A DNA stretch of 64,000 nt from Nitrospira sp. (GTDB lineage: Bacteria > Nitrospirota > Nitrospiria > Nitrospirales > Nitrospiraceae). The stretch lies in contig JARFXR010000001.1 in assembly GCA_029194535.1 (NCBI GenBank), positions 744,001 through 808,000 on the forward strand, given 5' to 3'. The stretch's first letter is position 1; the number at the start of each line of letters is the position of its first letter. The notes under the pieces are model-generated. The model saw nothing but the letters and a program-made list of their open reading frames with translations, searched no databases and was not told the origin of the DNA. Positions 40,174 to 54,358 of this stretch are shown one piece after another. Position numbers and translations under genes: made by a program.

Positions 40174-40497
40174 ATGGGGGACCCGATCCAGGACGAGATC
40201 CAAAAGGAAATCGCGGCGAACAAGATACTGATCTACGGCAAGGGAACGAAGACCATGCCGATGTGCGGGTTTACAAGGGAGACCATGCAGTTCTTCGACA
40301 AATACGGCTATCCCTACGAACTGATCGACGTGCTCTCACAGCCGGCCAAGCGCGAGGCCTTGACGAAAATGACCAACTGGCCCACCCTGCCCAAGGTCTT
40401 CATCGACGGGCAATTTTACGGCGACACGGACATCCTCGATCCGATGGCCGCCAAGGGCGAGATGGAGCCGCTGCTGAAGAAGGCGTTCGGGCGGTAA
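40174..40497 (+). CDS. grxD: Monothiol glutaredoxin (Grx4 type)
   Basis: About 107 residues; AAGGAGG five bases before ATG 40174 decides the start. The family motifs are KGTKTMPMCGFT (CGFT instead of the usual CGFS active site), WPTLPKVFIDGQFYGDTDIL and a C-terminal helix. It binds and passes [2Fe-2S] clusters with glutathione. Operon with bolA is the classic partnership. Confidence 0.92.
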   Translation: MGDPIQDEIQKEIAANKILIYGKGTKTMPMCGFTRETMQFFDKYGYPYELIDVLSQPAKREALTKMTNWPTLPKVFIDGQFYGDTDILDPMAAKGEMEPLLKKAFGR

Positions 40498-40536
40498 GCA
40501 GCCCAGGCGGAATCTCCGCCGCCCACCTGAGAGGCC

Positions 40537-40651
40537 ACCCAACTAGGTCTCGCTTGCTGAATCCTGCAAACTCGCCAGCGGCTGGCTCAAACAGTGCAGT
40601 CTTCGCGCTTGCTATGGAAGAGCAAGCGCCTCTCGCTTCGCCGAGTTGTGT
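40537..40651. repeat. Structured repeat, copy 1 (possible RNA element)
   Basis: 115 bases. The ends ACCCAACT and AGTTGTGT can pair at seven of eight positions. Inside are a hairpin with stem CTGCA/TGCAG (40564-40568, 40595-40599) holding an inner stem GCCAG/CTGGC (40574-40586), and a second hairpin GCGCTTGCT/AGCAAGCGC (40605-40629). Copy 2 begins 250 bases further on. The strand of any transcript is unknown. Confidence 0.6.
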
Positions 40652-40786
40652 CCCGGCCTCTCCAGCAAGGCGGCGGACGATTCCGCCCGGCTGCTCGCCC
40701 GGTAGATTTCAGCAGCGGGGAGAGGGGAGGATGAGAAGACAAGAGCAGCGTCGTCACGATCCTCGCCGCTCTCCACCTCCGCGCGT

Positions 40787-40900
40787 ACCCAGCTAAACCT
40801 CGTCCGTTCGTGGCCTGTAAACTCGTCGAAACGACTCGAACAGTACAGGCCACGCCGTTGCGACGCGAAGAGCAACGGTGCGAGCTGCGGCGAGTTGTGT
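40787..40900. repeat. Structured repeat, copy 2 (possible RNA element)
   Basis: 114 bases aligned along their length with copy 1 (shared AACTCG, AACAGT, CGAGTTGTGTCCCG blocks). The first hairpin is GTGGCCTGTA/TACAGGCCAC (40810-40853) with inner GTCG/CGAC; the second is CCGTTGC/GCAACGG (40855-40878). Paired positions differ from copy 1 on both sides, so pairing is kept while sequence changes. Confidence 0.6.
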
Positions 40901-41163
40901 CCCGCCCTTGCCGGTAATGGCGCCGGGTCCGTCCGACTGCTGTTCTGTTGGTGGTGAAGACGGACCTCGCCCGGTTTCCCGGCCGGCACATCAGCACGGC
41001 TTGCCCGCAACCTCGCCGGGACGATTCACCGCTGCTTCCATATAAGAGGAGCGCTGCAGCAAGTCTCGCTCGCTCCGGTGATGTTGGAGATAGGCCCACC
41101 GTAAGGGATGATTGCATTCTTTGGGAAAGGTAGGTAAAGCCTCTGCACAATTCATAGAAGCCC

Positions 41164-44100
41164 ATGAAGCTCGAAGACCTCCAGCCCAACGCCGCCGTCC
41201 GCGGTATCCTTCCTGACGCCCTCGTGACAGTCGTCAGCGTGCAATGGTTCGGTTCGGAAGCCATCGAGCTGACCTACAAAGACCTTGGTGGGCGAGTCGC
41301 CAACCAGTTGCTCTACCGCCATGACGAACCCCGCCTCGAAGTTGTCGAAGCCGGGCGGCCATGGAGTTTTGATGGCGATGGGGCCCTCTTCAGGCTCGTC
41401 TCCGAAGCGCATCGTATTCGACTCGCTCATCTCTTTGATCCGGTCCTGGCTGTGCACACTTCGCTCCTGGAGCCGCTCCCGCACCAGATCACAGCCGTGT
41501 ATGACGCGATGCTTCCCCGGCAACCACTGCGGTTCCTATTAGCCGACGATCCCGGCGCCGGCAAAACTATCATGGCCGGTCTGCTGATGAAGGAGCTGAT
41601 CGCGCGCGGTGACCTTCAACGCTGTCTTGTGGTCTGTCCCGGCAGTCTCGCCGAGCAATGGCAGGATGAGCTCTACCGGCGGTTCCAGCTTCCCTTCGAG
41701 ATTCTGACAAACGATAAGCTGCAGGCTGCCCGAACCGGCAACTGGTTTTTGGAAACAAACCTCGTGATCGCTCGTCTCGATAAGCTCTCCCGCAACGAGG
41801 ATGTACAGCACAAACTCCAAGCCCCCGATTGTCGCTGGGATCTCATCGTCTGCGATGAAGCGCACAAACTCTCCGCCACCTATTTCGGCGGTGAGATCAC
41901 GTACACCAAACGGTATCGGTTGGCGCAACTTCTGTCCACGCTGACGCGGCATTTTCTCTTGATGACGGCCACGCCGCATAATGGGAAGGAAGAAGATTTC
42001 CAGCTCTTCATGGCGCTGCTCGACGGCGATCGCTTTGAAGGGCGTTTCCGTGACGGGGTCCACCAGGTGGATGTGTCGGACCTCATGCGCCGCATGGTGA
42101 AGGAGAGTCTTCTCAAATTCGACGCGACACCGCTCTTCCCAGAACGAATGGCCTACACTGTCCCCTATAAGCTGTCACCGGCCGAAACTCAACTCTACAA
42201 AGCGGTCACTGACTATGTCCGCGACGAATTTAATCGGGCAGAAGCGCTGCAGAACGATAAACGAGCCGGGACGGTCGGCTTCGCCCTCACGATTTTGCAA
42301 CGCCGCCTGGCCTCCTCTCCAGAGGCCATCTATCAATCGCTGAGGCGCCGGCGTGAACGGCTTGAGAGTCGGCTGCGAGAGCTTGAATTGCTGCAGCGTG
42401 GGGCACAATCTGCCACGGCCATTGCCCCCGTCGGACCTGTGCTTGACAAGGAGGACGTGCAAGATCTGGAAGATGCGCCTGATAATGAGATGGAAGACGC
42501 CGAGGAGCAGATTCTCGATCAGGCGACGGCCGCACGAACCATCGCAGAGCTCAAGGCAGAAATTACCACGCTCAAGAACTTAGAGGAACTCGCCCTGTCG
42601 GTTCGCAGAAGCGGTGCGGACACGAAATGGCGCGAGCTGGCGAGCCTGTTCGGCGAGATATTTACCCCTGCTGCCCTTGCCGAGCATGTGGCAGAAGCAT
42701 CTCCCCCATATGGGAAGGGTGGGATCCCCCAGCCGGCTGCATCGGCCCGCCAAAAGTTAGTCATCTTTACTGAACACCGCGACACACTCAACTACCTGCA
42801 CAATCGTATTGAGACGCTGCTCGGACGGAAGCAAGCCCTCGTGATCATCCATGGTGGAATGGGCCGTGAGGATCGGATGAAGGCTCAGGAATCATTCAAA
42901 CACGATCCCGAAGTCCAGGTGTTGCTGGCTACGGATGCGGCCGGAGAGGGTATCAATCTGCAACGGGCCCATCTCATGGTGAATTACGACCTTCCGTGGA
43001 ATCCCAATCGGATTGAACAGCGATTCGGGCGCATCCACCGTATCGGCCAAACGGAAGTCTGCCACCTCTGGAACCTCGTCGCAGAAGAAACGAGAGAAGG
43101 TGATGTCTATCGCAGGCTATTAGAGAAGTTAGAGGAAGCGAGGACCGCGCTGGGCGGTCAGGTCTTCGATGTGCTCGGCAAATTGCAGTTTGATGGCAAA
43201 CCCCTCCGCGATCTGCTTATCGAAGCCATTCGATATGGGGAGCGTCCTGATGTTCAAGCTCGTCTCTCCCGTGTCGTGGCCGATGCGTTTGATCGGACAA
43301 AGCTCCAAGACTTGCTTGAAGAACGGGCGCTCGCACACGATGCCATGGACGCAAGCCGGGTCTATCGCATTCGAGAGGACATGGAGCGGGCTGAGGCGAG
43401 GCGTCTCCAGCCCCACTACATCGAGTCCTTTTTCCTCGAAGCCTTTCAACGGCTCGGCGGGTCACCCAAGCAGCGAGAGCCGCGGCGTTACGAAATCACC
43501 CATGTGCCGGCACCCGTCCGGAATCGAGATCGTCTCATTGGCGTTGGCGAACCCATCCTCCCGCGTTACGAGCGCATCGCGTTCGAGAAATCGCTGGTGG
43601 CCACTCAGGGTCAGGCACTGGCCGCGTTTGTCTGTCCGGGGCATCCGCTACTGGATGCAACCATTGATCTCACGCTTGAGCGGAATCGGGATCTGCTCAA
43701 ACGAGGGACCGTCCTCGTTGATGAACGAGATATGGGAACGACGCCGCGCGTGCTGTTCTACTTGGAACATGCCATCCAAGATGCCGGACTCACCCGATCG
43801 GGTGAACGACGAGTGGTCTCGAAACGTCTGCTGTACGTCGAGATCGATGAATCTGGAACTGCGCGCCATCTGCACTATGCTCCCTATCTCGACTATCGGC
43901 CGCTCAGGGCCGATGAGCCGACCATCGAAGCAATCCTGGCTCGACCAGAGTGCGTATGGATGACACGGGAATTGGAGCATCAGGCGCAAGCCCATGCCGT
44001 TGCCCGCGTAGTGCCTGAACATCTCGAAGAGGTGCGCGCGCGAAAACTCGACCTCATCACCAAGACGGAAGCGGCTGTGAAGGAAAGGCTGACAAAAGAG

Positions 44101-44742
44101 ATCAGTTATTGGGACCATCGAGCCGAGCAATTGAAACTCCAAGAGCAGGCAGGCAAGGCCAACGCGCGACTCAATTCAGGCGAGGCACGGAAGCGTGCTG
44201 ATGCATTGCAAGCCCGGCTTGAAAAGCGATTGGAGGAGCTGAAGCAAGAACGTCAGCTCTCACCCTTGCCGCCCGTCATCATTGGTGGCTTAATGGTCGT
44301 CCCTCTGGGACTTCTGGCCGCAATTCATGGTCGGACGACAGCGGCAACGGCATCGTCTCCAGATACCCAAGCCTCTGCGGCCCGTGCCCGCGCCGTTGTG
44401 ATGGAAGTGGAACGGACCCTCGGCTTCGATCCAACGGATCGCGAGAACGACAAGCTCGGCTATGACATCGAAAGCCGAGTCCCAGGGACAGGAAAGCTGC
44501 GCTTCATTGAAGTCAAAGGCAGAGTCACCGGAGCGGATACGATCACCATCACCAAGAACGAGATCTTGTACTCGTTGAATAAACCCGACGATTTCATTCT
44601 CGCGATCGTTGAGTTTTTGGATAACGATTCGCACCGCGTCCACTATGTGCGCCGGCCATTTCAGCGCGAACCGGACTTTGGCGTGACCAGCGTGAACTAC
44701 GAAATGAACGAGCTGATTAAAAGGGCAGAGAAACCGCACTGA
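41164..44742 (+). CDS. SNF2-type DEAH helicase with C-terminal DUF3883 domain
   Basis: 1192 residues. Superfamily 2 helicase motifs: Walker A DDPGAGKTIMAGLL (about 126-139), DEAH in VCDEAHKLSA (about 230), MTATPHNGKEEDF, VLLATDAAGEGINLQRAH and QRFGRIHRIGQ (about 618-628). A coiled region (about 970-1040) and a hydrophobic patch follow. The end holds a DUF3883 domain (LGYDIESR, RFIEVKGR), a PD-(D/E)xK-like fold often found in defence proteins; the E of IEVKGR would be part of the nuclease-like site. It should move along duplex DNA and may cut it. First gene of the operon; the next gene starts five bases on. Confidence 0.88.
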   Translation: MKLEDLQPNAAVRGILPDALVTVVSVQWFGSEAIELTYKDLGGRVANQLLYRHDEPRLEVVEAGRPWSFDGDGALFRLVSEAHRIRLAHLFDPVLAVHTSLLEPLPHQITAVYDAMLPRQPLRFLLADDPGAGKTIMAGLLMKELIARGDLQRCLVVCPGSLAEQWQDELYRRFQLPFEILTNDKLQAARTGNWFLETNLVIARLDKLSRNEDVQHKLQAPDCRWDLIVCDEAHKLSATYFGGEITYTKRYRLAQLLSTLTRHFLLMTATPHNGKEEDFQLFMALLDGDRFEGRFRDGVHQVDVSDLMRRMVKESLLKFDATPLFPERMAYTVPYKLSPAETQLYKAVTDYVRDEFNRAEALQNDKRAGTVGFALTILQRRLASSPEAIYQSLRRRRERLESRLRELELLQRGAQSATAIAPVGPVLDKEDVQDLEDAPDNEMEDAEEQILDQATAARTIAELKAEITTLKNLEELALSVRRSGADTKWRELASLFGEIFTPAALAEHVAEASPPYGKGGIPQPAASARQKLVIFTEHRDTLNYLHNRIETLLGRKQALVIIHGGMGREDRMKAQESFKHDPEVQVLLATDAAGEGINLQRAHLMVNYDLPWNPNRIEQRFGRIHRIGQTEVCHLWNLVAEETREGDVYRRLLEKLEEARTALGGQVFDVLGKLQFDGKPLRDLLIEAIRYGERPDVQARLSRVVADAFDRTKLQDLLEERALAHDAMDASRVYRIREDMERAEARRLQPHYIESFFLEAFQRLGGSPKQREPRRYEITHVPAPVRNRDRLIGVGEPILPRYERIAFEKSLVATQGQALAAFVCPGHPLLDATIDLTLERNRDLLKRGTVLVDERDMGTTPRVLFYLEHAIQDAGLTRSGERRVVSKRLLYVEIDESGTARHLHYAPYLDYRPLRADEPTIEAILARPECVWMTRELEHQAQAHAVARVVPEHLEEVRARKLDLITKTEAAVKERLTKEISYWDHRAEQLKLQEQAGKANARLNSGEARKRADALQARLEKRLEELKQERQLSPLPPVIIGGLMVVPLGLLAAIHGRTTAATASSPDTQASAARARAVVMEVERTLGFDPTDRENDKLGYDIESRVPGTGKLRFIEVKGRVTGADTITITKNEILYSLNKPDDFILAIVEFLDNDSHRVHYVRRPFQREPDFGVTSVNYEMNELIKRAEKPH

Positions 44743-44747
44743 ATGTC

Positions 44748-45683
44748 ATGGTCACAACGGATTCAGAGGAATGCTTCGAAGGGGAGGTATCCCCAGCAGC
44801 AGCATGGAACGAGGAATCGACCCGCCGCGGATTGGACGAGCTCTTCAGCCTTACTCGCCAGTACAAGTCGAGCAAGGCGTTTGGTGAGCTGATACAGTTC
44901 GTCGCTCGATTTCGTTTCTATTCTCCGTTTAACGCAATGTTGGTCCATGTGCAGATGGATGGTGCCCGATTCGTCGCCTCACCAAGCCGGTGGCTTCGGG
45001 ATTATCGCCGGCGGATCAAACCAGGGGGACGACCGCTTGTCATCCTGCAGCCGATGGGACCTGTCATGTTTGTGTTTGATGTGTCAGACACGGTTCCTGA
45101 GGAAGGAGCACCGGCGCTTCCACGGGAAGTCGTAGAACCGTTCGAAGTCAGACAAGGCAAGGTATCGGATGAACTGGACCGGACGATCATGAATTCTCGT
45201 CGCGACGGCGTGGAAGTGAGCGAGCGCATGGCCGGCTCGCAGAGCGCGGGCCTTATTCAGCGTGCCAAGCCGGGCCGAACCTTGGCTGTCCAAGTCAAAG
45301 AAAGACCAAGGCCGGAGTTCCTCGACATCCCACTTCGTTATGAACTGCTGCTGAATACTGAACATTCAAAGGCTACGAAATACGCCACCCTCGTTCATGA
45401 GTTGGGACACCTGTACTGCGGTCACCTTGGAACACCCTATGAGAGGTTTTGGCCCGATCGACGAGGCTTGCCCTATGAAGTAGAAGAGTTCGAAGCTGAA
45501 TCAATCTGCTATCTCGTCTGTGCCCGACTGGGAATCGATAATCCATCCGAGGAATACCTGGCCGGATTTATGAAAACAAATGAAGAGACACCTCCAATCA
45601 GTCTTGATTGTGTGATGAAAGCGGCTGGTTTGATTGAACACATGGGGCGCGAGAAGCTCAAGCCGAGAAAAGGAAGAGATTGA
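44748..45683 (+). CDS. ArdC/IrrE-like zinc metallopeptidase
   Basis: 311 residues. Residues 35-115 resemble the N-terminal DNA-binding part of ArdC antirestriction proteins: [40 protein letters not shown] and FVFDVSDT. The C-terminal half has the zincin motif [12 protein letters not shown] (HELGH at 217-221) and downstream [11 protein letters not shown], which supplies the third ligand as in ImmA/IrrE. It probably cleaves a regulatory protein or handles single-stranded DNA. It overlaps the methylase start and lies five bases after the helicase, so it belongs to the same unit. Confidence 0.8.
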
Positions 45684-48598
45684 AACCACCATATCAAAAG
45701 AAACTCATCGAAGTGGCGCTGCCGCTGGAGGCGATTAACAAGGCTTCGGCGCGGGAGAAGTCCATCCGTCATGGGCATCCGAGCACGCTGCACCTCTGGT
45801 GGGCCAGGCGGCCGTTGGCAGCGGCGCGCGCGGTGATCTTTGCGCAGATGGTGGATGACCCGTCGAGCCGGCCAGACCTGTTCCCCACGGAGAAGAAGCA
45901 GGAGAAGGAACGGCAACGGCTCTTCAAGATCATCGAAGACCTCGTGCAGTGGGAAAACACCACGAACGAAAAAGTCTTGCAGGCGGCGCGCGATGAAATC
46001 TGGCAGAGCTGGCGGCGAGCCTGCGCCGACCATGCCGACCATCCACGGGCCAAGGACCTGTTCAATCGCAACAAGCTCCCGGCCTTTCACGATCCCTTCG
46101 CAGGCGGCGGAGCCTTGCCGTTGGAGGCCCAACGGCTTGGCCTCGAAGCCTACGCGAGCGACCTGAATCCAGTCGCTGTGCTGATCAACAAGGCGATGAT
46201 CGAGATCCCGCCAAAGTTTTCCGGCAAGCCACCGGTGAATCCTGAATCGCAAAATGACAAGACGCTGTTCAAAAGGGAATGGCATGGCGCGCAAGGATTG
46301 GCCGAAGATGTTCGCTACTACGGGAAATGGATGCGGGACGAGGCCGAGAAGCGCATCGGCCATCTGTATCCCAAGATCGAAGTGACCAAGGAGATGGCGA
46401 AAGATCGGCCCGACCTCAAGCCCTACATCGGCCACAAGCTCACCGTGATCGCGTGGCTCTGGGCGCGCACGGTGAAGAGCCCGAACCCGGCATTCGCGAA
46501 GGTGGACGTGCCGCTCGCCTCCACCTTCATGCTCTCGACCAAGCCTGGTAAAGAGGCCTACGTCGAGCCGGTGGTTGATGACAAGAGCTACCGATTCACG
46601 GTGAAGGTGGGGAAGCCGAAGCACGCAGAGCGGGCGAAGAACGGGACCAAGCTCTCGCGCGGCGCGAACTTCGAGTGTGTGATGTCGGGGACGCCGATTG
46701 CGGGCGACTACATCAAGGCCGAGGGCAAGGCCGGGCGGATGGGCGCGCGACTGATGGCCATTGTGGCGGAAGGCCAGCGTGGGCGCCTGTACCTCGCGCC
46801 ATTGCCGATGCACGAGGAGGTGGCGCTCAAGGCTAAGCCGGAGTGGAAGCCGGAAGGCGACGTGCCCGCACGACTCACGGGCGGTACTTGCGTGCCATAT
46901 GGCTTGGTGACTTGGGGCGATCTCTTCACCCAGCGGCAGTTGGTGGCGCTGACGACCTTTTCCGACCTCGTGGGCGAGGCAATGCAGCAAGTCCGCCGCG
47001 ACGCGCTTGGCGCAGGCCTGCCCGATCCTTCGACAGGCTCAGGACAGGCGAACAAGCCCCTGCGCGGCGGCGGCACCGGCGCGGAGGCGTATGCAGAGGC
47101 GGTGGGGGTGTATCTGGTTTTTGCGTTGGACAAAGTCGTCGATCGTGGATCTTCAATCGGCAGGTGGGACCCAACGCCGACTCAGAGCGGGATTATTAAC
47201 ACCTTCAGCCGGCAAGCGCTTCCCATGACCTGGGACTTCGCTGAGTCGAATCCTCTTGGCGCAGCGTCTGGAAACTATGTAAGTGCCATCGAACTTGTAA
47301 CTAAGGTATTAGACAAACTCCCCAGCAACGGTATTAGTTCCGCTGAACAGGCGGATGCTTCAGGTCAAACGACAAGCACCGATCGATTGGTTTCTACCGA
47401 CCCACCCTACTACGACAACATCGGCTACGCTGACCTGTCCGACTTCTTCTACGTCTGGTTGCGCCGCTGCCTGCAGCCGATCTTCCCCGACCTATTTGCC
47501 ACGGTCGCCGTGCCGAAAGCCGAGGAACTGGTCGCCACGCCATACCGCCATGGGAACAAGGAGAAGGCAGAAACCTTCTTCTTGGAAGGCATGACTCAGG
47601 CGATGCATCGGCTGGTGGAGCAGGCGCACCCAGCGTTTCCGGTCACGATTTACTACGCCTTCAAACAGTCGGAGACAGAGAGTATCGAAGGTACGTCTAG
47701 CACCGGCTGGGAAACCTTTCTCGATGCGGTGATCCATGCCGGTTTCGGGATTAGCGGTACCTGGCCGATGCGCACGGAACTGAGCAATCGGATGATTAGC
47801 TCTGGCACGAACGCGCTCGCCTCCAGCATCGTGCTCGTCTGCCGTCCGCGAGCAGCAGATATGCCCACCGCCACCCGCCGTGAGTTTGTCGCCGCGCTGA
47901 AGGCCGAACTGCCGCAGGCGCTGCGCCGATTGCAGGAAGGCAACATCGCCCCGGTGGATCTCGCACAGGCGGCCATCGGCCCAGGCATGGCGGTCTACAC
48001 GCGCTACGCCAAGGTGCTCGACGCCGAGGGCAAGCCACTTTCCGTGCGTGAGGCGCTGGCTCTCATCAATCAAACACTCGATGAGGTCTTAGCCGAACAG
48101 GAGGGCGACTTCGACGCCGACAGCCGCTGGGCCTTGGCCTGGTTTGAACAATCCGGCTTCGCTCCTGGGGACTATGGCGTGGCCGAGACGCTCTCGAAGG
48201 CGAAGAACACGAGTGTCTCGGGGTTGGTCGACGCAGGCATTCTGTCCTCGAAGGCAGGAAAGGTGCGTCTCCTCAAGCCGGACGAATTGCCGAAAGACTG
48301 GGACCCCACCAGTGATCAGCGCCTGACGAACTGGGAGATGGTGCACCACCTCATTCGCGTCCTCGAATCAGGCGGCGAAGGAACAGCAGCGCAGTTGGTT
48401 GCGAAGCTGGGCAGCAAGGCTGAGACTGCCCGCGAACTCTGCTATCGCCTCTATGCGCTCTGCGAGCGAAAGAAGCGAGCAGCCGAGGCATTGTCCTACA
48501 ACGCCCTCGTCCAAAGCTGGCCGGAGATCACGCGGCTCGCGCGGGAGGGGCGAACGGAGCAGGCCGGGACTGGTGCAACGGGCGACTTGTTTGAGTGA
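45680..48598 (+). CDS. DUF1156 DNA adenine methylase (COG1743 type)
   Basis: 972 residues from a TTG (45680-45682) overlapping the previous stop. The DUF1156 N-terminus reads [20 protein letters not shown]; the SAM-binding motif is [17 protein letters not shown] (about 138) with ASDLNPVAV; the catalytic motif is [20 protein letters not shown] (about 574). These are hallmarks of the large DUF1156 methylases found in predicted phage defence loci. A repeat-derived insert encodes PSTGSGQA in frame (see 47027-47048). The methylase would mark self DNA. Its target sequence is unknown. Confidence 0.88.
47027..47048 (+). repeat. Dispersed repeat inserted in frame within the methylase gene
   Basis: The core CTTCGACAGGCTCAGG belongs to a repeat found scattered in many bacterial genomes, usually between genes. 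Here it adds PSTGSGQA without breaking the frame, in a variable loop between motif I and the DPPY motif. Confidence 0.6.
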
Positions 48599-48680
48599 AC
48601 GACAAGGTGTCCTTCCATCAAATATCGATGGGACTGAATGTGTCCTTGACTGGAGGACACCTGCGGGTCATGCTGATGCC

Positions 48681-50012
48681 ATGAGCCTGCACCCCGTTCT
48701 GGCCGAAAAACTGAGCGCCGCCATGGCGGCGGAAGCCATGCCGGTGTTCACCCGGCGCGATGCGCGCCTGCCCGCCGTGCCCGGCAAGGTGCATGCGGTG
48801 ATCGGGATGCGCCGGGCCGGCAAGACCACCTTTCTGCGGCAGTTGCTGCAGGAGCGCCGGGCGACGGCGGCGCCGGAGCAGGCGATCTATCTGAGCTTCG
48901 ACGACGACAGGCTGGCCGGGCTCGGCGCGGACCAACTCGGGAATTTGCTCGAGGAGTATTATCGGCGGGCGCCGGCGTTGCGCGGGCGCACGACCGTGCG
49001 CTGGCTCCTCGACGAGATTCAGCTCGTGCCCGGATGGGAACGGTTTGTGCGGCGCGTGCTGGACAGCGAGAAGGTCGAGGTCGTCGTGTCCGGGTCGTCG
49101 GCGCGGATGCTCTCGCGCGAGGTGCACACGTCGCTCCGCGGCCGCGGCATGGCGACCGTGATCCGGCCCTTCAGCTTCCGTGAGTTTCTGCGTCACCGTG
49201 ACGAAGAGCCGGGCGGGGATGCTCGGCGCTGGAAGCCGGCGGAACGCTCGCTGATCGAGAAGCGGTTTCGTGAATTTCTGTCGGGAGGCGGCTTTCCCGA
49301 GGCGCAGGGATTGTCGCCTGTATCCAGGATCGAGTTGTTGCAGGGCTACGTGGATACCGTCTTGTTCCGCGATGTGGTGGAACGCTATGGGGTGTCGCAG
49401 GTGGCGGCGTTGCGGTGGCTCGTGCGGCAATGTCTGCGCAACCCGGCCGGGAGCTTCAGCGCCCACCGGTTGCACCAGGACTTACAGGCTCAAGGTCACG
49501 GCGTGGCCAAGGATGCCGTGCATGCCATGCTCGGCCATCTGCTGGACGCCTTTCTGCTCAGTGCCGTGCCGCTGGCCACCGATTCGGAGCGTCAGCGCAA
49601 CTCCAACCCGCGCAAGCTCTATCCGGCGGATCCCGGACTCATCAAGGCGTTTGACGCCAGCGGTAGGACGAACCAGGGGCATGCGCTGGAGACGGTGGTG
49701 TTGAACGAGCTGGAGCGACGCAAGGCCGAGGTGGGGTATGTGAAGACGACCGACGGGCTGGAGGTGGATTTCTTGGCGCGCTATCTGGGTGGAGGGGAAG
49801 CACTGCTCCAGGTGTGCGCGGATCTGTCGGCGCCGGAGACGCGCGCACGCGAAGTGCGCGCCATGACGGCGGCGGCGAAGGAGCACCCGCAGGCCGCACG
49901 GCGGCTGCTGGTGCTCGATCGCGAGGCGCTCGCTCAGGTGAAGGAGGCCGGGATCGAGGCACAGCCTGTGTACGAGTGGCTGCTGGCCGATCACGTTGCG
50001 GAACAGGATTGA
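48681..50012 (+). CDS. AAA ATPase with DUF4143 domain
   Basis: About 443 residues from ATG 48681; the open frame extends back into the methylase gene. Walker A GMRRAGKTT (about 42-50), Walker B WLLDEIQ (about 106-112), sensor-like VVVSGSSARML, then PFSFREFL typical of this family. The C-terminal DUF4143 half has GGFPEAQG, FRDVVERYGV and a YPADPGL, GHALETVVLNEL, DFLARY nuclease-like stretch. These ATPases are common and of unclear role; some sit in defence islands. Composition is more GC-rich than the neighbours, suggesting separate arrival. The ribosome site is unclear. Confidence 0.85.
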   Translation: MSLHPVLAEKLSAAMAAEAMPVFTRRDARLPAVPGKVHAVIGMRRAGKTTFLRQLLQERRATAAPEQAIYLSFDDDRLAGLGADQLGNLLEEYYRRAPALRGRTTVRWLLDEIQLVPGWERFVRRVLDSEKVEVVVSGSSARMLSREVHTSLRGRGMATVIRPFSFREFLRHRDEEPGGDARRWKPAERSLIEKRFREFLSGGGFPEAQGLSPVSRIELLQGYVDTVLFRDVVERYGVSQVAALRWLVRQCLRNPAGSFSAHRLHQDLQAQGHGVAKDAVHAMLGHLLDAFLLSAVPLATDSERQRNSNPRKLYPADPGLIKAFDASGRTNQGHALETVVLNELERRKAEVGYVKTTDGLEVDFLARYLGGGEALLQVCADLSAPETRAREVRAMTAAAKEHPQAARRLLVLDREALAQVKEAGIEAQPVYEWLLADHVAEQD

Positions 50013-50027
50013 AGAGGAGCAACACCC

Positions 50028-53000
50028 ATGGCCATCACCAACCACGAACGTGTCGGCAAGGCGCTGGACCTCCTCAAGGAGGGGCTCCAGCCTTTTGTCG
50101 AACGGGAGATGAAGGCGCAGCACGCGCAACAATGGTTTGAACAGGTGAGGGCGTCGGTTGGAGAGACACAGTCCAACCTCTTCGGCACGGAAGACAAACC
50201 CCGCTGGGATGTCGCGGCGCTGTTGGGCGTGATGTGGAATCAGTGGCAGCTCGTCTTTCGGAAGCCGCTGGGGCAGGCGGAGCGGTCGCTCGTGAGCGAG
50301 CTGCGCGATGTGCGCAATCGATGGGCGCATCAGAATCCGTTCTCCGGCGATGATGCCTATCGGGCCCTCGACTCCGCGGCGCGGCTGTTGACCGCCGTCT
50401 CTGCTGCTCAAGCCGATGAGGTTGAGAAGATGAAGATGGAGCTTCTGCGCGTGCGCTTCGATGAGCAGGTGCGCACCGAGAAGCGGAAGAGCGCCGGCAC
50501 CGCGATCGACAGTCGGGCGACAGGCGGGCTGACGCCCTGGCGTGAGGTCGTCAATCCGCACAAGGACGTGGCGAGCGGGCGCTATCAACAAGCCGAGTTC
50601 GCCGCGGATCTCTGGCAAGTGCATATCGGAGAAGGGTCGGACGAGTACAAGAATCCGGTGGAATTCTTTCGCCGTACCTACCTGACGGACAGCCTGAGAC
50701 GACTCCTGGTGGGAGCGGTTCAACGGCTGGTCGGGAAGGGAGGCGATCCTGTCGTCCAGCTCCAGACGAACTTCGGCGGCGGGAAGACCCATTCGATGTT
50801 GGCGCTCTATCACCTCCTGTCCGAGACTGCGCCGAGCGAACTGCCGGGCATCGATGCGGTGCTCAAGGATGCCGAAGCCACGAAGCTGCCGCGCGTCAGG
50901 CGGGTGGTCTTGGTGGGAAACCGCATCTCGCCGGGCAATCCGGTCGTCAAATCGGATGGCACGGTGATTCGGACCCTCTGGGGTGAAATGGCCTGGCAAT
51001 TGGGCTATGCGGCTGGAGGAGTGAAAGAGGCGAAGACGGCGTTCAAACGTATTCAGGCCGACGATGAACGAGCCACCAGTCCCGGCGATGTCCTGCGAGC
51101 ACTCTTCAACGAATACGGACCTTGCCTCATTCTGATCGACGAATGGGTCGCCTACGCTCGGCAGTTACACGATGCCGCCGATCTGCCGGGCGGCAGTTTC
51201 GAGACCCAATTCACCTTCGCTCAGGTCCTCACCGAGTCCGCCAAGCTCGCGCAGCACTGCCTGCTGGTCATCAGCCTTCCGGCTTCCGACACCTCCGGTT
51301 CACCCCATACGCAGGCCGATGATGTGGAGGTTGGGGGACAGCGAGGGCGAGAAGCCTTGGATCGGTTGCGCAACGTGGTGGGGCGAGTCGAGTCCTCCTG
51401 GCGGCCGGCCAGCGCTGAGGAAGGATTTGAAATCGTTCGCCGTCGATTGTTCGAGCCGCTGGTGGAGAAGCATCAGTATGTGGCGCGCGATACCGTTGCC
51501 AAGGCCTTCTTCGATGTGTATTCCACCCAAGCCGCAGAATTTCCCCCTGAATGCCGCAACTCTGACTATGAGAAGCGGCTGAAGGCCGCATATCCTATTC
51601 ACCCGGAGATTTTCGATCGGCTCTATACCGACTGGTCCACGCTGGTGAAGTTTCAACGGACGCGCGGCGTCCTGCGCTTGATGGCCGCGGTCATTCATAG
51701 TCTCTGGGAAAAGGGCGACCGGAATCCGTTGATCCTTCCCGCGAACATTCCGATCGACGATCCGCGGGTGCAATTCGAACTGACCCGCTATCTGGCGGAT
51801 AACTGGGTGCCGGTCATTGAAAAGGATGTGGATGGACCGAACGCGCTTCCGCTTCGGCTGGATGGAGAGGTGCCGAATCTGGGTAAGTATGCAGCCGGGC
51901 GGCGGGTGGCGAGGACGATCTACCTCGGGTCGGCTCCGACTGCGACAGCGGCCAATCGCGGTATCGAGGATCGCCGGGTGAAACTCGGCTGTGTGATGCC
52001 GGGAGAATCGCCGACGATCTTCGGCGATGCGCTACGTCGATTAGGCAGCGCGGCGACCTACCTGTATCAAGATGGTGCTCGGTATTGGTACTCGACCCAG
52101 CCGACGGTGACAAAACTCGCGGAGGACCGGGCCGAGCAGCTCAAACGCAATCCCGATAAGGTCGCACAGGAACTCGACCGACGGCTTCGCGAAGATCTCC
52201 GTAAGACAGGTGACTTCGTCCGTGTGCATCCCATGCCCGAGTCAGGACAGGATGTGCCGGACGATCTGGATGCACGACTGGTTGTCCTCGGCGTCGACCA
52301 CCCGTACAGCAAGCAAGCGGACAACCAGGCCGAGGTTGCCGCGAAGGCGATCCTGGAATCACGAGGCAGCCAGCCGAGGCTCTTCCGCAATACGCTCGTC
52401 TTTTTGGCGGCTGACCAGGTGAGGCTCCAAGATCTGGATGAGGCGGTGCGTCGCTATCTCGCGTGGGATGCCATCCTCGCCGAGAAAGAGGCGCTCAATC
52501 TCGACCCACACCAGGTCAAGCAGGCGGAGAATCAGTTGCGGGCAGCCGACGGGGTGGTCTCGGCTCGGCTACCCGAGACGTATCAATGGCTCCTGGCGCC
52601 TGGGCAGGCGAACCCGCAGGCGGCGGTGGAATGGCAGGCCATCCGGTTGTCCGGGTCAGACCCACTCGCGGTGCGTGCGAGCAAGAAGCTCGGCAAAGAT
52701 GGGCTATTGAGTGTCTATGGGCCGACGGTGCTTCGATTAGAGATGGATCGCATTCCGCTCTGGCGGGGCAAGGCCCATGTCCCGGTGAGACAGCTTGTCG
52801 AAGATTTCGCGCGGTATCTGTATCTGCCGCGACTCAAGAGCCCCGAGGTCTTGCTCGAAGCCATTCGAAGCGGCCTCGGCCTCCTGTTGTGGCATCAGGA
52901 ATCGTTTGCCTATGCGGATAGCTTTGATGAAGCCGCCGGCCGCTATAGGGGTCTGCGCTGTGGACAACCGGTGCTGATCACCAGTACCGACCCGGGCCTG

Positions 53001-53393
53001 CTCGTCCAACCGGAAGCCGCCTTCCAGCAACAGGAGGCCGAGACAAAGGCGGCGCCTGCCCCAGTTGGGCCGACGGGGACGGAGCCAGAAACCGGACCTG
53101 CTGGAGGGACAGTTGGAGCCGGCAAAGACGGTGTGGCACCACCCAAAGGGCCACGACCACCGAAACGATTTCACGGGACTGTCAGCCTCGATCCCACCCG
53201 CGTGGGCCGTGACGCCGGCCGTATTGGTGACGAAGTCATCGCACACTTAGTTGGACTGATGGGATCGGATGTCAAAGTGACGTTGGAGATCGAGGCTGAG
53301 ATTCCAAATGGTGCTCCGGACAACGTCGTGCGTACAGTCACGGAAAACAGCCGGACGTTGAAGTTCACCAGTCATGGGTTTGAAGAGGAATAG
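50028..53393 (+). CDS. HEPN-DUF499 ATPase, defence-associated
   Basis: 1121 residues; GAGGAG precedes ATG 50028. Residues 1-135 look like a Swt1-type HEPN domain with RDVRNRWAH (about 94-102), matching the RNase signature R-x4-6-H. The DUF499 body follows with Walker A TNFGGGKTHSML (about 246-257), VGNRISPG and Walker B CLILIDEWVAYAR (about 366-378). A low-complexity Pro/Gly/Ala linker (about 1005-1045) leads to a small C-terminal domain ending in FTSHGFEEE. DUF499 proteins co-occur with DUF1156 methylases. As the last gene it may be the effector. Confidence 0.87.
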   Translation: MAITNHERVGKALDLLKEGLQPFVEREMKAQHAQQWFEQVRASVGETQSNLFGTEDKPRWDVAALLGVMWNQWQLVFRKPLGQAERSLVSELRDVRNRWAHQNPFSGDDAYRALDSAARLLTAVSAAQADEVEKMKMELLRVRFDEQVRTEKRKSAGTAIDSRATGGLTPWREVVNPHKDVASGRYQQAEFAADLWQVHIGEGSDEYKNPVEFFRRTYLTDSLRRLLVGAVQRLVGKGGDPVVQLQTNFGGGKTHSMLALYHLLSETAPSELPGIDAVLKDAEATKLPRVRRVVLVGNRISPGNPVVKSDGTVIRTLWGEMAWQLGYAAGGVKEAKTAFKRIQADDERATSPGDVLRALFNEYGPCLILIDEWVAYARQLHDAADLPGGSFETQFTFAQVLTESAKLAQHCLLVISLPASDTSGSPHTQADDVEVGGQRGREALDRLRNVVGRVESSWRPASAEEGFEIVRRRLFEPLVEKHQYVARDTVAKAFFDVYSTQAAEFPPECRNSDYEKRLKAAYPIHPEIFDRLYTDWSTLVKFQRTRGVLRLMAAVIHSLWEKGDRNPLILPANIPIDDPRVQFELTRYLADNWVPVIEKDVDGPNALPLRLDGEVPNLGKYAAGRRVARTIYLGSAPTATAANRGIEDRRVKLGCVMPGESPTIFGDALRRLGSAATYLYQDGARYWYSTQPTVTKLAEDRAEQLKRNPDKVAQELDRRLREDLRKTGDFVRVHPMPESGQDVPDDLDARLVVLGVDHPYSKQADNQAEVAAKAILESRGSQPRLFRNTLVFLAADQVRLQDLDEAVRRYLAWDAILAEKEALNLDPHQVKQAENQLRAADGVVSARLPETYQWLLAPGQANPQAAVEWQAIRLSGSDPLAVRASKKLGKDGLLSVYGPTVLRLEMDRIPLWRGKAHVPVRQLVEDFARYLYLPRLKSPEVLLEAIRSGLGLLLWHQESFAYADSFDEAAGRYRGLRCGQPVLITSTDPGLLVQPEAAFQQQEAETKAAPAPVGPTGTEPETGPAGGTVGAGKDGVAPPKGPRPPKRFHGTVSLDPTRVGRDAGRIGDEVIAHLVGLMGSDVKVTLEIEAEIPNGAPDNVVRTVTENSRTLKFTSHGFEEE

Positions 53394-53623
53394 ATATGTT
53401 GACCCTTCGCGATACTGTGATCATCAGGGCAATCAGTGGCTGGCAACCGCTCATCGAGACGAACTGATGGAGGACTGGAATTTATGCAGCCAGCTCACAA
53501 CTCCAAAACCGATCGCCCCTCTGATGTAGAACCGGCCATCCGGCATCTGGTGCCTTTGCGGGTTCTTTCCGTGAGCACCGGCCGCCAAAAACAAAGGTAC
53601 CGGCTAGTAGAACTTTTGGAGGA

Positions 53624-53731
53624 AGAGAAAGGTGTCAGGAACCTTTCCCTCCTCGTCCGCGCATGACCAACGGATTTAGTTCATCAATCGACTATGCTGA
53701 GTCAAGAGAATGGTTCCTGACACCTTTCTCT
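53624..53731. repeat. REPIN-like inverted repeat element
   Basis: AGAGAAAGGTGTCAGGAACC (53624-53643) is perfectly complementary to 53712-53731, with 68 bases between. The left arm continues CTTT, so AAAGGT and ACCTTT can also form a small local hairpin. Paired REP-type ends without a gene fit a REPIN or MITE. It is different from the ends of the REP transposase in this window. Confidence 0.65.
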
Positions 53732-53844
53732 GACCGACCCGACTTTTCCTGCCTGTGCTGGTCGAATCCCTTCATTGGCATTTCGGTTTTTGTGATTTGA
53801 GTTTTGGTATTTGAGGCTTTCCATCTGTATGAAGGTGGGCCTGG

Positions 53845-53864
53845 ATTCCCGCGTTCGCGGGGAT
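53845..53864 (-). repeat. Dispersed hairpin repeat, second example
   Basis: ATTCCCGCG TT CGCGGGGAT, the same family as 39715-39734 in the opposite orientation (CTGG before, GAC after). It may also act as a weak terminator for the leftward gene at 53954. Confidence 0.6.
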
Positions 53865-53953
53865 GACGGAGTTTCCAAACATGAGTCCATTACCAAATGG
53901 GAAGTGTACGTTCCATGGACGGGTAGACAGTTCAGGGAGAGAACGTGGCGGTT

Positions 53954-54358
53954 TTACCGTTTGGCTTCAGGAGGGGGCCAGTTCATTTCCGTGTGTCTAC
54001 CGCAATAAAAGCAGGAGAGGCGGTAGCGCGCTTTGCGGCGAGGGTTGGGCATGGAGGTGAAGGTGATGGGGGTATCGTCGAAGGGGCAGGTCGGTTGATC
54101 GTGCAGCAGATGCATCTCCGCCATCATGGTGATCGAGGCGACGTCCCAGGAGGGAGAGGTCCCCGGCTCGCCGGTGATGGACTCTACGATATGGCACCGT
54201 TCGCATTCGGCTTGATACGTCTTCACCCCGGCATTGTGCGAGGTCAGATCGGTCACGTCCATCGGGCCTCCGCAGTCCGGACGGGCACAAGTCAGATGTT
54301 CGTGTTGCAGCGCCTGCACAAACCGGCGGTGGCTCGATCGCTCCTGCTCTGTCTTCAT
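53954..54358 (-). CDS. Hypothetical zinc-ribbon protein
   Basis: 134 residues; AGGAGGG eight bases before the ATG. Cysteine pairs suggest zinc ribbons: CARPDCGG near residue 24, CERC near 52, CPFD near 91 and SCFYCGRH near 114. The middle has DVASITMMAEMHLLHD. I do not recognise a family. It starts 13 bases after the oxidoreductase gene and may be the last gene of that leftward group. Confidence 0.65.
   Translation of the reverse strand: MKTEQERSSHRRFVQALQHEHLTCARPDCGGPMDVTDLTSHNAGVKTYQAECERCHIVESITGEPGTSPSWDVASITMMAEMHLLHDQPTCPFDDTPITFTSMPNPRRKARYRLSCFYCGRHTEMNWPPPEAKR

Follow-up and report, generated by a model that had tools for sequence, protein, structure and literature searches.

A dispersed, structure-conserved palindromic element of Nitrospira that probably acts as folded DNA and enters hairpins downstream of genes

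The SMR-A repeats of Haloquadratum walsbyi are inverted repeats of ∼ 110 bases that carry no transposase and are found inserted within palindromes; neither the enzyme responsible nor the mode of movement has been established (PMC3119063). Multicopy palindromic intergenic families have likewise been reported in Geobacter (PMC2700814, PMC2996986). The SMR-A repeats are the nearest described counterpart in behaviour of two structured repeats, W1 and W2, located in a 64 000-nucleotide stretch of a Nitrospira sp. genome (the window).

The core of W1 (150 bases, comprising closing stems, an apical two-part hairpin and a side hairpin) occupies positions 40522–40671 of the + strand, and the core of W2 lies on the same strand at 40772–40920. 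The two are spaced 249–250 bases apart and share a two-hairpin fold, as an earlier, sequence-only reading had reported, and every compensatory pairing named in that reading was located in both copies. The covarying apical stem (40564–40599 in W1, 40815–40848 in W2) is formed by CTGCA (40564–40568) and TGCAG (40595–40599) in W1 and by CTGTA (40815–40819) and TACAG (40844–40848) in W2. It is capped by a tip hairpin, GCCAG (40574–40578) with CTGGC (40582–40586) in W1 and GTCG (40825–40828) with CGAC (40832–40835) in W2; in W1 a conserved internal loop (AACTC.../...CTCAAACAG) lies inside the apical stem. The side hairpin pairs GCGCTTGCT (40605–40613) with AGCAAGCGC (40621–40629) in W1, where it constitutes covarying helix 8, and CCGTTGC (40855–40861) with GCAACGG (40872–40878) in W2, where it also covaries. 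Both copies lie where that reading had placed them, and W2 ends 244 bases before the helicase ATG (41164).

The structure of W1 extends beyond its first description, since closing stems and outer inverted-repeat arms bring its span to 40498–40694, a near-continuous palindrome from the outer arms inward to the apical stem and side hairpin. All of these parts are on the + strand. The left outer arm (GCAGCCCAGGCGGAATC, 40498–40514) pairs with the right outer arm (GATTCCGCCCGGCTGC, 40679–40694), and the left inner closing arm (TCCGCCGCC, 40515–40523) with the right (GGCGGCGGA, 40669–40677). Within these, stem P1 (covarying helix 2) joins GAGAGGCC (40529–40536) to GGCCTCTC (40655–40662) and stem P2 (covarying helix 3) joins ACCCAAC (40537–40543) to GTTGTGT (40645–40651). 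A monothiol glutaredoxin (Grx4-like) gene (40174–40497, + strand) has its stop codon directly 5′ of the left outer arm, and the 3′ hairpin region of this gene is the host site of W1; the same gene also precedes the element in ∼ 15 relatives. In W2 the core is kept, whereas the outer arms are non-complementary, with a score of 7.0 that is at chance level in the arms test. Two further features of glutaredoxin (grx) loci were observed. A repeat-like stretch at 40963–41030 of the window (GACCTCGCCCGGTTTCCCGGC...CACATCAGCACGGCTTGCCCGCAACCTCGC) is found again near the grx locus of genomes G001 and G003, and after the grx stop codon of G003 (L298) and G185 (L299) the element is reduced to its right half, and other repeats take the place of the left half.

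Among 70 relatives, 90.8% of the cells at paired positions are able to pair, compared with 78.0% in shuffled and 28–46% in slid controls, and the covariation score is 0.339, compared with 0.123 and ∼ 0.04–0.07, respectively; the shuffles ignore the relatedness of the copies, whereas the slid controls do not. None of 500 shuffles attained the observed pairing or covariation values, and a slide of one side by a single base abolished the signal. Indeed, double-sided changes are seen in 32 of the 36 pairs. The folding of single sequences provides weak evidence (z of 0.02 for W1 and −2.44 for W2). The covariation seen initially in two copies is thus genuine, and it marks a constrained, folded nucleic acid.

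A DNA search of relatives identified copies in 12 of 61 genomes. A model built from an alignment of 16 copies (R1), which matches the W1 core with 145.8 bits (E 5e-35) and the W2 core with 132 bits (E 1.9e-31), finds the element in 53 of 175 genomes of the family to which the window belongs, at a low copy number of one to five each, and in 60 of 396 genomes of the phylum, with distant full-length matches down to E 1e-15. The family looks Nitrospira-like. A second model (R2), built from 46 distant copies, gave four copies in a Geobacter MAG (E 5e-13), 15 matches with E ≤ 0.001 in a Bacteroidetes MAG and a weak match in a Clostridia genome. The W1 apex (internal loop plus tip), when read as its reverse complement, is a tip motif shared across phyla, TGTYTGAG-hairpin-CGAGTT, which corresponds to the minus strand of the window. 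This motif occurs 46 times in the Clostridia genome, 26 times in the Bacteroidetes MAG, and 24 and 21 times in two Nitrospirota; in several genomes 20–46 apex motifs contrast with 0–3 matches to a reversed-pattern control. A phage collection gave no match to the element, and no description of the apex motif was found in open-licence literature. A literature search by sequence string returned chance matches only, and a scan of genomes and viruses with a 14-base pattern gave scattered matches; among the loci examined further, only one fitted the models, a Nitrospira sp. UBA2083 locus (L119) at which the element follows the W1-type glutaredoxin gene. A separate observation concerns a Diplocloster (Clostridia) locus (L461, ∼ 1370–1650), where the same apex motif sits in a near-perfect palindrome of ∼ 280 bases, which is longer than is usual for stable palindromes in bacteria.

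The element is non-coding, 150–200 bases long and dispersed, the properties by which SMR/PATE-type repeats are recognised, and the genes that neighbour its copies are unrelated and mostly housekeeping. Orthologous loci fall into four sets of up to 18 copies each, together with ∼ 15 singletons, a pattern that points to rare movement and subsequent vertical descent. A structure-conserved intergenic DNA element that is absent from Rfam is thereby delimited in several phyla, and its apex motif is concrete enough for searches.

Taken together with the data presented below, W1 and W2 are probably copies of a non-coding, dispersed, structure-conserved DNA element, which folds as DNA rather than as RNA and would enter hairpins downstream of genes. 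The main alternative is a structured non-coding RNA (a 3′ UTR RNA, small RNA or riboregulator), transcribed from one strand and with its fold under selection. Strong covariation combined with conserved unpaired positions is what such an RNA would show, and W1, starting ∼ 25 bases past the stop codon of the glutaredoxin gene and with the orientation of that gene, could be co-transcribed with it. In an RNA under selection G.U pairs would be tolerated on the transcribed strand and A.C pairs would not. In the element, however, G-T and A-C combinations at paired positions are equally rare, at 84 and 92 cells (58 and 73 in alignment A2; 26 and 19 in A3). Two controls were kept, namely Rfam-aligned RNase P (three RNAs, Rfam structure), with 26 G-T and 3 A-C, and 27 tRNAs identified by ARAGORN, with 39 and 0, although ARAGORN may itself discard A.C pairs. 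Fisher p-values for the element are 1.4e-5 against RNase P and 1.7e-11 against tRNA, which are optimistic because the cells share ancestry. Two other RNase P controls were set aside: RNAalifold on MAFFT alignments is biased, as it scored the reverse strand identically, and MAFFT with the known structure gave a GT/AC ratio near 1 in columns that look misaligned. The pairing thus looks DNA-like rather than RNA-like. When the reverse strand was folded independently, T.G pairs appeared at a few apex positions, so that a minus-strand RNA keeps a small probability.

Moreover, Rfam gave no match, either at the gathering threshold or at E values up to 5, and the element lies in both orientations relative to neighbouring genes in a gene context that is not constant. 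An RNA reading is accordingly unlikely overall, and the C4-type antisense RNA and the guide or decoy RNA suggested earlier fare no better, in view of the absent Rfam match and of the lack of a G.U preference on either strand of the model structure. Of the two possibilities first offered, a functional RNA or a single-stranded-DNA structure, it is the latter that the data favour. More generally, compensatory changes are usually taken to prove that an RNA is functional, yet they can stem from a palindrome at the DNA level, and the balance of G.U and A.C can separate DNA folds from RNA folds if it is checked against known RNAs.

Evidence on how the DNA element is situated comes from the outer arms. 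In the window's family the median score for outer-arm complementarity is 13 within a copy and 6 between copies, and elsewhere in the phylum the corresponding values are 10 and 5.5; the score exceeds the 99th percentile in 17 of 34 and 20 of 45 copies, respectively. Arms that are complementary within a copy and differ between copies would follow if every copy had its own host hairpin around it. A single empty site was seen, in G002 as compared with G000. Here a simple hairpin, GCAGCCGGGCGGA-GCG-TCCGCCCGGCTGC, follows the glutaredoxin stop codon. Each half corresponds to one of the W1 outer arms, and no element separates them, the W1 core being absent; the G002 sequence comes from a draft assembly, in which a gap and a duplicated end of grx lie just upstream. 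At the post-grx site of other genera there is a second family of hairpins, in many cases with a T run behind it, and some copies of this family are nested, one in the loop of another (G022, G185, G024). The second family has the core TGCTCGCG.AACGCGC...CGTTGGACGCGCGCA and long, near-perfect arms, and was observed, for example, at loci L518–L525 (G178, G181, G170, G191, G182), L313 (G014) and L318 (G190).

Movement as a REP/REPIN-type element, mobilised on single-stranded DNA by a RAYT (TnpA_REP, a Y1 transposase), would account for an intergenic, palindromic, dispersed repeat. Y1 genes are common in the window's family (117 of 172), and in G267 (contigs C4, C71, C187, C192 and C428; L348, L352 and L364) the apex motifs of two hairpin types form inverted pairs ∼ 200 bases apart, a REPIN-like layout. 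However, several genomes with the element or its apex lack PF01797, namely G024, G198 and G036, all of which carry R1 matches, and G349 and G486, in which the apex motif occurs 21 and 26 times. The surroundings (∼ 1.5 kb) of 50 Y1 genes also contain no R2 match. The element is also 130–200 bases long rather than 20–40, and the GTAG/CGTC tag was not seen by eye in the copies inspected. RAYT mobilisation was rejected on these grounds of co-occurrence and proximity, tests which revealed no transposase or recombinase linked to the element, and we consider it improbable.

Comparably little weight is given to covariation arising without function, in which template switching corrects a quasi-palindrome and so keeps its arms complementary in one step. 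This process accounts for paired changes with few one-sided intermediates and for GC to CG swaps, and the very long perfect arms of the Clostridia copy would also fit. Template switching alone is insufficient, however, because conservation across phyla extends to the unpaired positions of the apex, and the entire branched architecture is retained.

The operon downstream of W2 was identified by PADLOC as an Hma system (HmaA, 41164–44742; HmaB, 45680–48598; HmaC, 50028–53393). It is carried on a 12.9 kb segment (41091–53954) that is absent from the sister genome G001, in which homology is continuous from the equivalent of 41090 to 53955 and resumes directly on both sides. W1 is nevertheless present at the equivalent place in G001, together with the left part of W2, whose right half is replaced in that genome; the proximity of the operon is therefore coincidental. 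From this comparison, W1 and W2 were at the site before the defence operon arrived, and no link between the repeats and the operon is visible. HmaA, HmaB and HmaC are not among the most frequent families listed for 111 neighbouring proteins of other copies, which include NadA, RlmN, PAS and radical-SAM proteins. A tie to DUF1156/DUF499 defence genes thus finds no support: model searches show dispersed copies (53 of 175 and 60 of 396 genomes) with no Hma association seen elsewhere, and scattered copies unrelated to defence genes are the genomic part of what the sequence-only reading had itself named as refuting it, the other part being an absence of transcripts. Within the operon, HmaC has an N-terminal Swt1-like HEPN domain (residues 11–125) before DUF499, and two extra genes show weak Peptidase_M78 and RT_III-A matches (44748–45683) and an AAA_14/DUF4143 assignment (48399–50012).

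An attachment or recombination site for the defence island (attC-like, or an island boundary) is very improbable, for although ACCCAAC (40537–40543) fits RYYYAAC, the folded-DNA signature of the proposed recombination site stands and the Hma insert starts ∼ 170 bases downstream of the element, the partner GTTGTGT violates GTTRRRY, distant copies lack the box, the island ends at 41091 and 53954 are away from the element, and G001, with W1 and part of W2 but no island, largely refutes it. Identity with attC was rejected on the same box evidence, and neither an integron integrase nor a cassette array was seen among the families listed in the neighbour scan of the copies.

If W1 and W2 are indeed copies of a folded DNA element, the following model can be proposed. 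The element would be a long imperfect palindrome, with a tip hairpin above a conserved internal loop at its apex, and would act, or be maintained, as a cruciform or single-strand hairpin. It would spread by rare insertion into pre-existing, terminator-like hairpins located just 3′ of genes. The host arms would then flank it as an outer stem, and it would thereafter be inherited vertically. A structure-specific strand transferase may recognise the apex, and hairpin loops in general may be the insertion target. A broader proposal, possible but held only tentatively, is that these copies represent a class of structure-specified DNA element, not named before and present in at least four bacterial phyla, that is moved between hairpins by a strand-transfer enzyme acting in trans. 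If so, recognition would depend on the shape of the element and on a short loop at its apex, and not on its sequence.

Compared with known systems, the W1/W2 family resembles integron attC sites in that structure is conserved while sequence varies, and in its apparent folding as single-strand DNA, but the R″/R′ box pair (RYYYAAC...GTTRRRY) does not hold and the outer arms of the W1/W2 family vary by copy. Like REP/REPIN sequences, the family is intergenic, palindromic, dispersed and sometimes arranged in inverted pairs, whereas it is much longer and branched, has a conserved apex loop and shows no linkage to RAYT in the tests made (PMC3733652, PMC3116915). The palindromic families of Geobacter are alike by description, and a Geobacter MAG carries the element (PMC2700814, PMC2996986). 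As with the SMR-A repeats, members of the W1/W2 family are inverted repeats, are free of transposase and are probably located within palindromes. SMR-A copies, however, are near-identical within a genome and target palindromes that belong to IS605-type elements and PATEs (PMC3119063), whereas the W1/W2 family sits by the hairpins of host genes, keeps its structure while its sequence diverges strongly, and is spread over multiple phyla.
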